A stretch of DNA of 39,106 nt from Candidatus Omnitrophota bacterium (lineage in GTDB: Bacteria > Omnitrophota > Gorgyraeia > Zapsychrales > Fredricksoniimonadaceae). The notes under the pieces are model-generated. The model did no database searches and was not told where the DNA came from. It worked only from the letters and a program-made list of their open reading frames with translations. The translations under genes and the position numbers were made by a program. The DNA is taken from assembly GCA_015233375.1 (NCBI GenBank), contig JADFXW010000006.1, forward strand, positions 1-39,106, in the 5' to 3' direction. Shown one piece after another: positions 4,701 through 27,142 of the stretch (position 1 is the stretch's first letter; every line of letters begins with the position of its first letter).

Positions 4701-5057
4701 TGGGATTGTTATGCTGGCCAGGAAGTATTTGATGAGTTTGGTGACTTCGTTCTTTTGTTGTTGGTTCTGGATTCCCGCTTTCGCGGGAATGACAGAAGAA
4801 GAACCAGGAATGACATTAGACTCACAGGGAATGACACCTCTGTCACCTGTATCCAAAACAAAATCAAAACGAAATGGATTATCTGGATAAACCTTAAGGC
4901 CTTTGAGGATGGGAGGATTAAATACCGAACTTTCATGCACCAGGACACCAGGCTTGGGCAATACCCACTCATCTGCTTGGGACAATGGCGTAAAATCTAA
5001 AAAATTAGCCATGAATACCCATAAAATAAAAAGATGAAGAATAAATGATTTATTCAC
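1776..5057 (-). CDS. Large exported multidomain protein with a MidA/NDUFAF7-type (COG1565-like) SAM-dependent methyltransferase domain
   Basis: 1093 aa; N-terminal signal-like segment; IIKEIHQNEGAIPFEQFMRMSLYAPQLGFYTSG and VIEMGAGTGILARDILKE match the MidA-family signature. N-terminal region is of unknown function and contains repeat-derived segments. Confidence 0.75.
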   Translation of the reverse strand: MNKSFILHLFILWVFMANFLDFTPLSQADEWVLPKPGVLVHESSVFNPPILKGLKVYPDNPFRFDFVLDTGDRGVIPCESNVIPGSSSVIPAKAGIQNQQQKNEVTKLIKYFLASITIPEKDLWVNLSPYEKNRIIPHSFGLTEMGRDLLAEDYILKQMTASLIYPEGAVGKKFWKRVYEEAGKRFGTTNVPVNTFNKVWIVPEKAEVFENEKAGAAYVVEAKLKVMLEEDYLAMSKNLMPTRGHVPFFRDVSPSTLPGEVALNMKASQGNPRTPIREINALGSKIIREIVIPQLTKEVNENKNFAQLRQVYNSLILATWYKKKIKDSILSQVYADKNKVIGVEYKQSVILALPTRAMAWPSERALNVKTTRKNAPNDIELIYQRYLQAFKKGVYNYIKEEQDLATQKTIPRKYFSGGVSLHFFEKGEETNLGYGAAMVVFDSKTAPQEVLLQINNAVTSGEVVVTAAMRSAGNNRAMLHKADDSKRLDALKQLIIKEIHQNEGAIPFEQFMRMSLYAPQLGFYTSGAVKFGTQDSEEKNDFNTAPIKMSPYFGRGVAKQLNEMWENMGSPAHFEVIEMGAGTGILARDILKEIEEEYPSLYQAIKYTILEISPELIKIQKDLFRDNKIPIPEDISLGVPETRIKVFWKEGSALDVDKSFSGVQGVFISNELPDTFPVRRIKFENGNILESYIGATSQGELYETWQKCSDPKIMEYLKLLLGGKDEKDWEKRAQGRTFAVNLQAMDWIKKIGSVIKKGYVITFDYGNRSFDELDNQKEPMRFYGHVEDGSPVTLSQVLASPGLFDITASVHFHVISQSDRHVGLVPMTNLPVPQDEFFMNLQQYRNFGWPGFYVLIQAKGDTDLEGRSLMGLQNNMRFLNGRWERVYHGTDTDIYQITPVGLETYCLVVAGRQDTKDMEHVLQYLATKQLGQIQSSINLKGYFHFDQQQFSRWLQENRLDYETTLFPQMQFLRVLEKEFRTYSGRPFVLVLGKKDFPESLKQRIHFIDEEGGHPLGRNGAMKANALALGYKGGIDLSRADKDLQTQVSHGRIQWRFDRAMLHSLKPIVGLSPDIIGWYPLMSLRRFLDGPGAF

Positions 5058-18804: not shown

Positions 18805-20235
18805 TTAAAACTTCACTGCAACAGAGGCAAGCGCCTGGCTTGCGGCTTTACGATTAATATTCGAGAACGCATCAGCTGGCATAAACCAGCCTAAGACCAA
18901 ATTAAAATCAACATCTTCAGAATAACTATATTTGAGTTTCACATCGTATTCATTACCCAATCCCCTCTGCCCCTTGTTCTTGGTATCAGGATAAAGATAA
19001 AGATAATAATTTGGTTGAGTCATAGACAACTCATTGTTATCACCAAAACTATCTGCGGCCCAAACATTGCTCCATGTAAAAGACGCCTTCACATCTTGCA
19101 AAAGATCGACGGAAGCGCCCGCTGATAAAACATTCAAATTTCCCAGATTAAACAGAGTTCCATAAATCGTTCCCGCGCCAAAATCACTCATAAAGGAATG
19201 CCATTGAGTGTAATATTTGGCATCTTTTGAATCGCTGCTGCCGTAATTAGTCTCTGCCATCTTATCACCAGACATATAGGTATACGCCACATTAACAGAG
19301 GGTTTATATTTTGTCATAACAGGAAGCGCGTAGGTGGCCATCACTTGACCAGCCATTGCCCTCCGTTTTTCTGCCGCAGTCACAATATCATCCACTGTCT
19401 GGTTGCCAAATTGCATCGCAAACTCACCTTGAATGTTTAACCCTTGGAATGGATTTGTACTAAAACGGAATCCCGGAATATACCACTTGTCGCCCTTGTT
19501 AGCCACCCCATCAACAATAATCGTTTCTTCTCGACCAGCAATACCTGCGAACATGTATTGCTCTAAGACAGTGTTCCAGGAATCGTTGAGCTGATAATTA
19601 AGATTATAGCCATAAACATTAATACTTTGACCGCTTGTTAAATTAGCCAATCCACGCACTGAATCCAATGTCTGAACAAGCTTAAAATAAACTAAATCGA
19701 TGGTCAAAGGTTTATAATCCAAAACAACCTTGACACCATCTGCGGATCTTCTTAACGACAAATCCTGGTCAATATACGCCAAAGGGCCATTGCCTAAATT
19801 AAAATTATTATTGCCAATAATAAACCCATTTCCATAATAAAATATCTGACGCCCCACCGTAATGCTTAACGGTGAATATAAAAATTCACGCAAGGTGATA
19901 GAGGCTAAATACAACTGAACATTAGTGTCATTCGCATAATTCGTGTTATTATCACTACTGTTCTCATTATTCCACACCCTCTCATTAATCAAACCAACCG
20001 TCGTTGACACATTATCCGTAAGGTCTGCATCAATACGAAGACGTGTTTGAGTCAAAAAGATATTCTGACTTTTAAGACCATGATTCACCGCTTGTGTCGT
20101 GGCCATCCCTAAATCAAAATCCTGACGATCCACAAACGACGTTGTAATGTCCCCGCTAATCTTAACATTTTGAACAGCCGCAAAAGCAGGGACCACAAAA
20201 ATCATCATAAAAACCATCACTAAGAACTTTTTCAT
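18805..20235 (-). CDS. Outer-membrane beta-barrel porin-like protein, paralog 3
   Basis: Signal peptide MKKFLVMVFMMIFVVPAFAA; VQNVKISGDITTSFVDRQDF; C-terminal ...ASVAVKF ends in aromatic F. Strongly similar to the two adjacent CDSs. Confidence 0.82.
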   Translation of the reverse strand: MKKFLVMVFMMIFVVPAFAAVQNVKISGDITTSFVDRQDFDLGMATTQAVNHGLKSQNIFLTQTRLRIDADLTDNVSTTVGLINERVWNNENSSDNNTNYANDTNVQLYLASITLREFLYSPLSITVGRQIFYYGNGFIIGNNNFNLGNGPLAYIDQDLSLRRSADGVKVVLDYKPLTIDLVYFKLVQTLDSVRGLANLTSGQSINVYGYNLNYQLNDSWNTVLEQYMFAGIAGREETIIVDGVANKGDKWYIPGFRFSTNPFQGLNIQGEFAMQFGNQTVDDIVTAAEKRRAMAGQVMATYALPVMTKYKPSVNVAYTYMSGDKMAETNYGSSDSKDAKYYTQWHSFMSDFGAGTIYGTLFNLGNLNVLSAGASVDLLQDVKASFTWSNVWAADSFGDNNELSMTQPNYYLYLYPDTKNKGQRGLGNEYDVKLKYSYSEDVDFNLVLGWFMPADAFSNINRKAASQALASVAVKF

Positions 20236-20258
20236 TAGACCCCTCCCCCTTTTGATAA

Positions 20259-20294
20259 ATTTCCCCCGTCCAGGTTTCCCTGGACGGGGGAAAT
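20259..20294. repeat. Perfect 16-bp stem-loop between porin paralogs 2 and 3
   Basis: ATTTCCCCCGTCCAGG-TTTC-CCTGGACGGGGGAAAT. Confidence 0.9.
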
Positions 20295-20320
20295 AATACG
20301 TTTAATGGATTTCTCCAGAA

Positions 20321-21751
20321 TTAAAACTTAACGGCAACATTGGCAATGGCCTGGCTTGCCGTATCCCTATTGGTATTAGCTAACGCGTCTCCAGGAATAT
20401 ACCAGCCAACAGTAGCACCAAAAGACACGTCTTCGGTGTAATCATACTTTACATTGACATCATATTCATTCCCCAACCCACGGCGATTTGCCTTTGTTAC
20501 AGGATTATAAACACTTAACCCTGAGTTAGGCTGAAACATATCAAGCGGGTTATTAGTTAAATTATATGCATCTGCTGCCAATAAATTCGTCCATGTGAAA
20601 GACGTTGTCACATCTTCTATGGGGCTTACGGAAGCTCCTGCAGAAAAAATGTTCATATTAGATGCGGCAAATAACGTACCATAAATGGTACCTGCCCCAA
20701 CATCCCCCATGAACGGATCCCACGCGGTGTAGCGTTTAGCATCCTTTGAACCAGAACCTGAATAGTTCCGATTAGCCATCTTATCACCTGAAAGATAGGT
20801 ATAAGAGGCATTTAAGGTGGGCTTATATTTAGTTAACACCGGCAATGAATACGTTGCCATCAACTGGGCCGCCATCGCATGACGAGGCTCCGCCGTCTCG
20901 GAACCAGAATCATCGATAATCTGGTCTCCCATCTGAAGAGCGAGCTCACCCTGGAGATTTAACCCTTTTATAGGATTAGTGCTGACATGAAACCCCGGGA
21001 TAAACCATTTTTCTCCCTTGTCTTGAGCTCCCACATAAGCTTTACCTTGAACACCAATAAACACATACTGCTCAAGGACCGTGTTCCAGGCATCATTTAA
21101 CTGGTAATTGGCATTGTACCCATAAATATCAGAACCTTGGCCGCTTTCTAAACCAGCCAAACCTCGAATAGAATTATTACTCTGCGCATGTTTGATATAA
21201 ACTAAATCAATGGTTAATGGTTTATAATCCAATACAGCCTTGACACCATCCAGACCTTTTCTCATGCTCAAGTCTTTAGTAATATACTCTAAACTCCCGG
21301 AGTTTTGAAGATAACTGTTATCACTAATAACAAGCCCATTGCCATAATGAAATAATTGACGCCCAATCGTCACGCTCAGCGGAGAATACAAGAATTCACG
21401 CAAGGTGACAGACGCCAAATATAACTGCACGTTTGTATCATTAGCGTAATTGGTTTTCCCTGCAGAATCACTGCTGTTTTCAGCATTCCACACACGCTCA
21501 TTAATCAAACCAATAGTGGTGGAAACGTTATCCGTCAGATCCGCATCCACACGAAGGCGGGTTTGCGTTAAAAAAATATTCTGATTCTTAAGACCAACAC
21601 CGACCCCTGCTTGATTGAGACCAAGATCAAAATCATTCCTTCCCACAAAAGAAGTCGTGATATCCCCGCTTACCTTAACATTTTGAACAGCCGCAAAAGC
21701 CGGAGAAGACAACACCATCATCAATGCTATAACTATAAATTTTTTCATCAA
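20321..21751 (-). CDS. Outer-membrane beta-barrel porin-like protein, paralog 2
   Basis: Signal peptide, VQNVKVSGDITTSFVGRNDFDLG, LDYKPLTIDLVYIK, C-terminal ANVAVKF; same length (476 aa) as paralog 3. Confidence 0.82.
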   Translation of the reverse strand: MMKKFIVIALMMVLSSPAFAAVQNVKVSGDITTSFVGRNDFDLGLNQAGVGVGLKNQNIFLTQTRLRVDADLTDNVSTTIGLINERVWNAENSSDSAGKTNYANDTNVQLYLASVTLREFLYSPLSVTIGRQLFHYGNGLVISDNSYLQNSGSLEYITKDLSMRKGLDGVKAVLDYKPLTIDLVYIKHAQSNNSIRGLAGLESGQGSDIYGYNANYQLNDAWNTVLEQYVFIGVQGKAYVGAQDKGEKWFIPGFHVSTNPIKGLNLQGELALQMGDQIIDDSGSETAEPRHAMAAQLMATYSLPVLTKYKPTLNASYTYLSGDKMANRNYSGSGSKDAKRYTAWDPFMGDVGAGTIYGTLFAASNMNIFSAGASVSPIEDVTTSFTWTNLLAADAYNLTNNPLDMFQPNSGLSVYNPVTKANRRGLGNEYDVNVKYDYTEDVSFGATVGWYIPGDALANTNRDTASQAIANVAVKF

Positions 21752-21768
21752 TCTTTCTCCCGTTTATA

Positions 21769-21805
21769 AATTCCCCCGCCTAAGGTTTCCCTTAGACGGG
21801 GGAAT
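21769..21805. repeat. Stem-loop between porin paralogs 1 and 2, related to the one at 20259
   Basis: AATTCCCCCGCCTAAGG-TTT-CCCTTAGACGGGGGAATT. Confidence 0.88.
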
Positions 21806-21833
21806 TGATGAGTTCTACTGGATTTCTCCAAAA

Positions 21834-23294
21834 TTAGAACTTAACAGCAACATCGGCGATGGCCTGGCTTGCTGTATCACGATTCAGATTGGATAAAGCA
21901 TCACCAGGAACATACCAACCAACAGTGACACCGAATGAAACATCTTCGGTATAATTGTACTTGACGTTGACATCATACTCATTACCTAATCCCCTCTCAC
22001 CGGTTGTCTTGGTGGCAGGATTAAGAACGCCAGTACCCTCATTGGGTTGAAAGATTAAAAGCGGATTATTGGTATTATAGCTATCCGCTGCCCATAAATT
22101 GCTCCATGTAAAGGAAGCTGTAACATCTTCCAAAGGACTTACTGAAGCTCCCCCTGAAAGAATATTTAAGTTGCTCATTGGATACAAGGTGCCATAAATA
22201 GTACCTGATCCAATACTGCCTTCCAAAGGACTCCAAGCAGTAAAATGCTTAGCATCCTTATCGCCTGATGCGGAATAGTTCTCATACTGCCTCTTATCAC
22301 CAGAAAGATAGGTGTAAGACATATTCAATGTCGGCTTATATTTGGTTAAAATCGGCAAAGAATAAGAGGCCATCACTTGAGCGGCCATGGCACGAACAGG
22401 CTCAGCAGCAACCTTGTTGTTTTGTTTCACGTTCTGATCACCTGCCTGGAACGCTAACTCGCCTTGAATATTCAATCCTTTAATAGGATTGGTACTGGCA
22501 CGTAACCCAGGAACATAGAGCTTATTCCCTTTATTTTCACCAGCAATACCAATACTATCACAATTGTTTAAACACCCTTTCCCTATAATACTAGAGAACA
22601 GGTATTGTTCCACAACGGTATTCCAAGCATCATTTAATTGATAATTAAGGTTATACCCATAAACACTGGAACTTTGACCACTGCGTAAACCTGCTAACCC
22701 TCGAATTGACTGTACTGACTGTTGACTCTTGAAATAGATCAAGTCAATGGTTAAAGGCTTATAATCCAAAACAACCTTAACACCATCATTAGCAGCTCTC
22801 AAATTCAAGTCTTGAGCAACGTACTGTAATGGACCAGAACCTTGACTGGCTGGACCATTACCCAGGACCAAGCCATTGCCATAAATAAAGGCCTGACGCC
22901 CAACAGTTACAGTTAACGGAGAATACAAAAACTCACGTAACGTCACTGTTGCCAGATACAACTGCACGTTTGTATCATTAGCGTAATTGGTATTTGCATC
23001 AGAGTTGTTTTCAGCATTCCACACACGCTCATTAATTAACCCAACAGCAGTGGACACATTATCCGTTAAATCAGCATCCACACGAAGACGGGTTTGTGTA
23101 AGAAACATGCTTTGACTCTTAAGACCAGTATCATCGGCATTACCTAATGCACCTACACTGGTCATGCCTAAATTAAAGTCATTACGATCTACATAGGAGG
23201 CGGTAATGTCTCCGCTAACCTTCACGTTTTGAACAGCCGCGAAAGCCGGAGCAGCCAAAACCACCATTAAAGCTGCAACTAATATTTTCTTCAT
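21834..23294 (-). CDS. Outer-membrane beta-barrel porin-like protein, paralog 1
   Basis: Signal peptide MKKILVAALMVVLAAPAFAA, VQNVKVSGDITASYVDRNDFNLG, C-terminal ADVAVKF. Confidence 0.82.
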   Translation of the reverse strand: MKKILVAALMVVLAAPAFAAVQNVKVSGDITASYVDRNDFNLGMTSVGALGNADDTGLKSQSMFLTQTRLRVDADLTDNVSTAVGLINERVWNAENNSDANTNYANDTNVQLYLATVTLREFLYSPLTVTVGRQAFIYGNGLVLGNGPASQGSGPLQYVAQDLNLRAANDGVKVVLDYKPLTIDLIYFKSQQSVQSIRGLAGLRSGQSSSVYGYNLNYQLNDAWNTVVEQYLFSSIIGKGCLNNCDSIGIAGENKGNKLYVPGLRASTNPIKGLNIQGELAFQAGDQNVKQNNKVAAEPVRAMAAQVMASYSLPILTKYKPTLNMSYTYLSGDKRQYENYSASGDKDAKHFTAWSPLEGSIGSGTIYGTLYPMSNLNILSGGASVSPLEDVTASFTWSNLWAADSYNTNNPLLIFQPNEGTGVLNPATKTTGERGLGNEYDVNVKYNYTEDVSFGVTVGWYVPGDALSNLNRDTASQAIADVAVKF

Positions 23295-23612: not shown

Positions 23613-24272
23613 CTATTCATTTTCCTGCTTATGGTGTTTAATATCGCGTCCTTCAACTATATAAACAACCTCTTCAGCAATATTAGTAGATAGATCCGCA
23701 ATGCGTTCAAGATTATGAGCAATACGCATTAATGCCAAGGCTCTGGGAATAATATCTTTTTTGCCGCGCATAAGAACAGTTAGCTCTTTGAGTATCTTAT
23801 CCCCAGCCTCATCCACCACATTATCCATGGAACACACAGACTGAGCCATATTGACATCCTCATTAACAAAGGAATTAATGGCATTTTTAAGCATAAGAAC
23901 CGTATTTTCCCACATTTTTGGCAAATCGCTGTAAGATATTAAAGAAGGGTTAGCAATTAAATAAAGACCACTTTCAGATATATTGACCGCATGGTCCGCC
24001 ATTCGTTCCAGGTCCTTGTTCATTTTAATAATCATAATAACCATCCTCAAATCCCTTGCCACAGGCTCAAATTGAGCAATAATCTGCACACACATCTCAT
24101 CAATGGAGCGGTCATAGGCATTCACTCTTGGCTCCTGGTTTTTGACCACCTGATAGAGCATGTCCGCGTCCTTATCCAAAAGCCCCCTCATGCTTCGGCT
24201 TATCATATCCTCCACAAGACCTGCATCCTGTATTAATTGATGTTTTAATTCCGTGATTTTTTCTCTTAGCAT
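23613..24272 (-). CDS. phoU: Phosphate signalling/transport accessory protein PhoU
   Basis: 219 aa; VVKNQEPRVNAYDRSIDEMCVQIIAQFEPVARDLRMVIMIIKMNKDLERMADHAVNI; MRIAHNLERIADLSTNIAEEVVYI. Confidence 0.96.
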   Translation of the reverse strand: MLREKITELKHQLIQDAGLVEDMISRSMRGLLDKDADMLYQVVKNQEPRVNAYDRSIDEMCVQIIAQFEPVARDLRMVIMIIKMNKDLERMADHAVNISESGLYLIANPSLISYSDLPKMWENTVLMLKNAINSFVNEDVNMAQSVCSMDNVVDEAGDKILKELTVLMRGKKDIIPRALALMRIAHNLERIADLSTNIAEEVVYIVEGRDIKHHKQENE

Positions 24273-24304
24273 ATCGCCTCCTTAATACTACTTAACGCCA
24301 GTTC

Positions 24305-24468
24305 GATATAAGGATTGGAAGTCGTTTTTGAAAACTACTGTTGCCCCGCCAATCTTCATCACCGATTCTGAAAGACAGCCCGAAGGGCGTTGTCTTTCTG
24401 AAATATTAGAAAAGATTGGCGGAAAAAGGCAACTCGTAGTTGAAAAAATGACTTCCAATCCTTATATC
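24305..24468. repeat. Large nested inverted repeat between pstB and phoU
   Basis: Perfect 19-bp ends GATATAAGGATTGGAAGTC (24305-24323) / GACTTCCAATCCTTATATC (24450-24468); inner CCGCCAATCTT (24346-24356) / AAGATTGGCGG (24412-24422); central hairpin GAAAGACAGCCCGAAGGGCGTTGTCTTTC. Confidence 0.95.
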
Positions 24469-24476
24469 AAACTCAC

Positions 24477-25241
24477 TTAACCAAAACGGCCGGTGATGTA
24501 ATCTTCCGTAATTTTACTAGATGGTTTTGTAAAAAAGTCCTTTGTTTTCGCAAACTCTATAACCTGGCCATGCATCAAGAAAGCCGTTTTGTCTGAAACC
24601 CTGGCCGCTTGTTGCATATTATGGGTCACAATAACTATGGTGTACTCATCTTTTAGATCTCCTATCAACTCTTCAATCCTGGCTGTCGCAATAGGATCCA
24701 GAGCAGAACAAGGCTCATCCATCAAAATAATCTCAGGATTAATGGCAATAGCACGGGCTATACATAAACGCTGCTGTTGTCCGCCAGAAAGAGACATCGC
24801 ACTTTTACCTAAATGATCTTTAACCTCATCCCATAAGGCTGCCCTTCTTAGACTTTTCTCCACAATTTCTCTTAAAATCCTATTGTCCTTAATACCCACA
24901 ATCTTTAAACCATACGCAATGTTTTCATAAATCGATTTCAAAAAAGGCGTTGATTTTTGAAAAACCATCCCGACTTTACGCCTTAAACTCACCACATCCG
25001 TCTCAGGAGCATAAATATCGACACCATCTATTAAAACCTGACCCTCCACACGGATTAAAGGAATCAAATCATTCATGCGGTTAAAAATACGAATAAGCGT
25101 TGATTTTCCACAACCAGAAGGGCCTATCATCGCCACCACCTGGCATGGCTCAATGGCCATGGAGATGTCTTTCAAGGTATGTTGCTCTCCATAATAAAAA
25201 TTCAATTTTTTGAGTTGTATGCTTCCAACTGAATTTTTCAT
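24477..25241 (-). CDS. pstB: Phosphate ABC transporter ATP-binding protein PstB
   Basis: [57 protein letters not shown]. Confidence 0.97.
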
Positions 25242-27071: not shown

Positions 27072-27142
27072 ATTCCCACGAAAGTGGGAATCCAGAACAA
27101 AAAAGGGTTGTATTTGAACTAGATTCCCGCTTTCGCGGGAAT
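27072..27142. repeat. Inverted pair of dRS3-like palindromes in the pstS-pstC intergenic region
   Basis: ATTCCCACGAAAGTGGGAAT (27072-27091) and ATTCCCGCTTTCGCGGGAAT (27123-27142), in inverted orientation. Confidence 0.93.

Follow-up and report, generated by a model that had tools for sequence, protein, structure and literature searches.

A MITE-like repeat family with an evolutionarily maintained hairpin at the pstB-phoU junction of a Candidatus Omnitrophota genome

The pstB-phoU junction of a Candidatus Omnitrophota genome contains a nested inverted repeat, raising the question of whether this sequence is a mobile element, an RNA element of the pst operon or an incidental palindrome. In the window (the whole 39,106-nucleotide stretch of DNA that was analysed), it lies between the upstream gene pstB (24477–25241, minus strand) and the downstream gene phoU (23613–24272, minus strand), both identified by position and product in the order pstS-pstC-pstA-pstB-phoU. 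The phoU gene retains its own ribosome-binding-like sequence, AAGGAGG. Downstream of phoU, three similar porin-like, exported proteins (476–486 aa) are encoded in succession at positions 18805–23294, apparently a tandem gene amplification.

The original prediction described a 164-bp element (24305–24468) with perfect 19-bp termini, a separate inner inverted repeat and a third, central hairpin, and all three structures are present. The termini (24305–24323 versus 24450–24468) are exactly complementary and form the inner part of a 30-bp arm pair (24300–24329 and 24444–24473) that is 93% complementary; the left arm carries AGTTCGATATAAGG, which is common to the copies of the source genome, and continues through ATTGGAAGTCGTTTTT, and the right arm carries AAAAATGACTTCCAATCCTTATATCAAACT. 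Inside the arms, AACTAC (24333–24338) pairs with GTAGTT (24436–24441), followed by the 5′ side of the inner stem, GTTGCCC-CGCCAATCTT (24340–24356), and its 3′ side, AAGATTGGCGG-AAAAAG-GCAAC (24412–24434). The inner repeat proper consists of GCCAATCTT (24348–24356) and AAGATTGGC (24412–24420), extending to CCGCCAATCTT and AAGATTGGCGG. An internal loop with two conserved sides, one containing CACCGATTC (24357–24369) and the opposite one TGAAATATTAGAAAA (24399–24413), separates this stem from the central hairpin, GAAAGACA-GCC-CGAA-GGC-(GT)-TGTCTTTC (24370–24398), which is composed of GAAAGACA (24370–24377), GCCCGAAGGGC (24378–24388) and TGTCTTTC (24391–24398). The 164 nt fold with a minimum free energy of −89 kcal/mol, compared to a mean of −32 (sd 3.8) for shuffled sequences (z −15; 0 of 200 shuffles as stable), and a value of −96 kcal/mol was obtained for the opposite strand when slightly extended at its ends. 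The inverted repeat is genuine and far exceeds chance expectation. While the position of the palindrome had been given exactly, the element itself is slightly larger, extending from approximately 24297 to 24474, and is flanked by an exact direct repeat, ACTTAAC (24290–24296 and 24475–24481), the right copy of which overlaps the pstB stop codon and which represents a candidate 7-bp target-site duplication. All parts of the element are assigned to the plus strand, as in our covariance model R1; this strand is antisense to pstB and phoU.

The window element is homologous to 18 other full-length sequences in the source genome (G000), an assembly of 1.76 Mb in 209 contigs that is 64% complete. The resulting 19 full-length copies, found by a genome search, share 84–100% identity, are approximately 178–184 bp long and have neither coding capacity nor a transposase gene; partial copies occur at contig ends and in contig C145. 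Copies are intergenic and adjoin unrelated genes, including the nuoH-nuoI, ribE and metG loci (names read from translations). A search with the arm motif also recovered a coreless copy (L094, G000:C77:16634–16680) consisting of only the two arms with a perfect TATTATA duplication, which is either a deletion derivative or a minimal mobile unit. At another locus (L009, G000:C110), two copies flank a single gene encoding a small YgjP-like metal hydrolase, possibly forming a composite unit. The window also holds a short perfect palindrome, ATTCCCGCTTTCGCGGGAAT, at 4771–4790 and 27123–27142, whose family occupies 33 places in the source genome; two occurrences in the window compare with none expected by chance. 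Since the palindrome at 4771–4790 falls within an open reading frame and contributes there to VIPAKAGIQ-like peptides, it belongs to a second family of intragenic/intergenic repeats, distinct from the first.

Both arms of the source-genome copies have AGTTCGATATAAGG as their outermost common sequence, preceded by about 5 less conserved bases. When the 7-mers flanking the copies at a fixed distance were compared, the match within copies was far better than that of mixed pairs, with a sum that was not attained in any of 20,000 permutations. Perfect duplications include TAAGATA, TTAAGAA, TATTATA and the ACTTAAC of the window copy; many target sites resemble TA-NNN-TA, and several, including that at pstB, overlap stop codons. 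A copy in a related genome (L128 in G006) has related ends and, by eye, a TAAGTTA duplication. Duplications are thus demonstrated for the G000 copies and one G006 copy, and are not visible in most copies of G004 and G012. In the window copy the duplication is offset by 3/1 nt from AGTT/AACT, as opposed to the common 5/5 offset of the family, which counts against the reading as a MITE.

Orthologous junctions that lack the element provide further evidence of its movement. The pstB-phoU junction is empty, at 11–14 nt, in G002, G005 and G006, and measures ~36 nt in G003, where it holds an unrelated small hairpin in place of the element; it is occupied in G000 and also in the related species G004, where the element (L058/L049) has the reverse orientation. 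Either the junction was hit twice independently or one copy was inverted. Similarly, the nuoH-nuoI junction spans only 3–6 nt in G001, G002, G003, G005, G006 and G012 and contains the element in G000. These empty sites in relatives indicate insertion rather than an ancestral operon feature. Together with the dispersed copies and target duplications, they bear out the suggestion that the palindrome is MITE-like, and they run counter to a single-copy RNA element of the pst operon, such as a pst-specific attenuator, since the sequence is dispersed beside unrelated genes and, among congeners with a pstB-phoU junction, most do not carry it there.

Searches with the covariance model revealed the family in other genomes of the same genus (8 copies in G004, 6 each in G003 and G006, and a fragment in G001; none in the congeners G002 and G005) and in another genus (about 10 copies in G012, with weaker matches in G011, G020 and G045). 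All family matches were within one GTDB family, and the named matches were Candidatus Omnitrophota metagenome-assembled genomes; beyond that GTDB family, nothing was found at E ≤ 1e-7 in a sample of 386 genomes of the phylum. The element had no match in the annotated phage and plasmid collections. Assignment to a known Rfam RNA family was rejected, as no Rfam covariance model matched over the element, either in the window (E up to 10) or in five relatives (gathering threshold). No paper naming MITEs together with Omnitrophota was found, so this looks like the first family described there, and the hairpin family appears to be previously undescribed.

Comparison of 48 copies revealed that the hairpin fold itself has been maintained. 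Standard pairs account for 94.6% of the paired cells, and two-sided (compensatory) changes occur in 24 of 30 stem pairs, including 4 of 5 in the lower stem of the central hairpin. Cells with a two-sided change numbered 223, in comparison to 55 in shuffles (0 of 500) and no more than 48 in slid controls. At one stem position, all four Watson-Crick pairs are well represented (CG 15, AU 13, GC 10, UA 9). Because the copies were aligned to the model, and some of them had been used to build it, the alignment leans towards that structure, although the slid and shuffled controls are far lower, and a MAFFT-based count already gave two-sided changes in 21 of 30 pairs. Unpaired loop motifs such as CCGATTC and AGAAAAG are conserved across genera even where the stems differ completely; it is these conserved loops, together with the compensatory stem changes, that argue for maintenance of the fold. 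Covarying stems with conserved unpaired motifs are the features of a structured RNA or ssDNA element, and because the covariation is family-wide, the MITE and structured RNA (or ssDNA) readings are not mutually exclusive. Covariation had been proposed as a mark of a single-copy RNA element at the pst locus; it holds for the family as a whole.

How, then, should a mobile sequence with a conserved fold be explained? A very stable hairpin between two genes might be an incidental, single-locus palindrome or the pstB transcription terminator, readings to which we give practically no credence, as both are refuted by the multicopy family and the empty sites, and the sole terminator-like site reported is on the strand opposite to pstB. 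In addition, phoU directly follows pstB, with which it is normally found in the same operon. Substantially more plausible, and yet rather unlikely in our estimation, is that the family is primarily a putative cis-regulatory RNA, i.e. a structured mRNA element that spread through operons and was kept for setting processing, stability or the coupling of up- and downstream genes, in the manner of ERIC or NEMIS. The strong stem covariation and the insertions inside operons such as pst and nuo are in keeping with such a role, as is orientation: in all 13 source-genome copies located between co-directional genes (simple open reading frames, not curated annotation), the R1 plus strand is antisense to the genes (13:0, two-sided p 0.0002), with four further copies between divergent genes. 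Furthermore, the effects of ERIC and NEMIS on mRNA depend on orientation or on RNase III, and by analogy an orientation-dependent effect on mRNA, as in ERIC, is a fair hypothesis (PMC2229807). However, the neighbouring genes are unrelated, the same junctions are empty in most relatives, and copies in G004 and G012 face either way relative to the genes, with the one in the G004 pstB-phoU gap facing the opposite way. A wobble bias in the core (66 G-T versus 15 A-C) also favours folding of the R1 plus strand, which is antisense to the genes in G000. The G-T versus A-C count is a weak guide to the folding strand, because half of it comes from one pair and the bias is absent in the G000 arms (8 A-C, 6 G-T).

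The arms of the hairpin raise another possibility, namely that mutation alone is responsible, with replication template switching in a quasi-palindrome copying one arm onto the other and generating covariation without a selected function. Over 22 positions of the G000 arms, 49 identical two-sided changes were found along with 20 one-sided changes, whereas independent arms would be expected to yield 8.4 identical changes. Conservation in G004 and G012 is highest in the core of the element and lowest in the outer arms; across the outer 14 arm positions, identity between copies is close to random (38% and 29%, respectively). Nevertheless, outer arms are complementary within each copy, with 8.4 matches versus 4.8 for mixed arms in G004 (permutation p 0.0015) and 10.0 versus 5.0 in G012 (permutation p <0.0005); G003 and G006, which have few copies, follow the same trend. 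While arms that are unique to each copy and yet complementary fit template switching, mutation bias alone does not explain the conservation of the unpaired loop motifs across genera, and we view it as a possible but doubtful account of the family.

Ordinary MITEs conserve their terminal repeats, and the poor conservation of the outer arms in G004 and G012 counts against the MITE reading. Both the concerted change of the arms and the near copy-unique, yet self-complementary, outermost arms of these two genomes are unusual for a MITE. At the G004 pstB-phoU junction, the end of pstB (TTTGGCTAG, with the stop codon) itself forms one arm, and the other arm mirrors TTTGGCTAG. Matched outer arms may reflect palindromic targets, template-switch extension after insertion, or selection for longer stems. 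Insertion of all copies into pre-existing palindromes is unlikely given the flanks in G004 and G012, which reach up to 28 bp if joined. If arms that were once shared had diverged gradually, this would account for the G012 gradient, but not for the abrupt transition in G004 from 93% identity in the proximal part to 38% in the outer part. A more radical and quite improbable proposal is that recognition of the mobile element would depend on the folded core and not on a set sequence at its termini, that the hairpin base would set the ends of the moving unit, and that each insertion would gain outer arms complementary to flanking host sequence, e.g. TTTGGCTAG at the end of pstB in G004.

We consider it very probable that the family is a non-autonomous, MITE-like mobile element of ~178–184 bp that is moved in trans by a transposase and whose fold is kept by paired substitutions across species and genera; its identification as a MITE-like family with an evolutionarily maintained hairpin is firm. 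Small size, terminal inverted repeats, the lack of a transposase gene, dispersed multiple copies, target-site duplications and empty sites all support this assignment. Target duplications suggest that, as in MITEs in general, a transposase supplied in trans makes staggered cuts, and we infer that the enzyme is encoded elsewhere and recognises either the ends or the folded structure. No autonomous partner sharing these ends was found: the end-pattern search returned family copies only, which is weak evidence in assemblies as incomplete and fragmented as these. IS200/IS605-derived REP/REPIN sequences, which depend on a Y1 transposase (RAYT) present in the carrier genomes and do not form target duplications, are disfavoured by the duplications observed here and by the lack of a Y1 transposase match (PF01797) in G006, which is 94% complete and has 6 copies. 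A retro-element route is likewise disfavoured, as no reverse transcriptase (PF00078) was detected in G000, G003, G004 or G006; neither enzyme looks necessary. Once inserted, the element would survive mainly between genes, often beside stop codons, and would be tolerated inside operons because the start signals of the neighbouring gene remain intact. Two processes probably preserve the concerted arm changes, singly or together: template switching from arm to arm in the quasi-palindrome, and selection for the folded form.

Several bacterial repeats resemble the Omnitrophota element. QMITE2 of Coxiella burnetii, with 7–9 bp direct repeats, terminal repeats of 23–29 bp around a 113–145 bp core and a stable hairpin transcript, is similar in size, target duplications, terminal repeats around a core, hairpin and absence of coding capacity (PMC10969869); compared by description, it differs in that the inner core of the Omnitrophota family shows compensatory changes and is conserved between genera, while the outer arms are variable in some species. 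The ERIC/IRU repeats of Enterobacteria (127 bp) are also intergenic imperfect palindromes located in operons, where they are co-transcribed and their orientation matters for their effect (PMC2229807), but they have short terminal repeats, TA at their ends, a different size and a different host phylum. Correia/NEMIS elements of Neisseria (107–155 bp, terminal repeats of ~24 bp) are likewise hairpins dispersed in intergenic regions, for which RNase III processing has been proposed, with TA at their termini (PMC2229807) rather than the 7-bp AT-rich duplication of the Omnitrophota element. YPAL/RU-2 of Yersinia (168 bp) is palindromic, intergenic and close to 180 bp in length, in an unrelated host, and concerted arm evolution is not reported in the descriptions consulted (PMC2229807, PMC2759123).

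Insertions of the Omnitrophota family in the core operons pst and nuo, with matching empty sites in relatives, constitute a set for comparison. The family also offers a natural test of how the arms of long palindromes stay matched, whether by selection on the fold or by template-switch correction. If the mobilising enzyme does recognise the fold, the range of known MITE mechanisms would be broadened.
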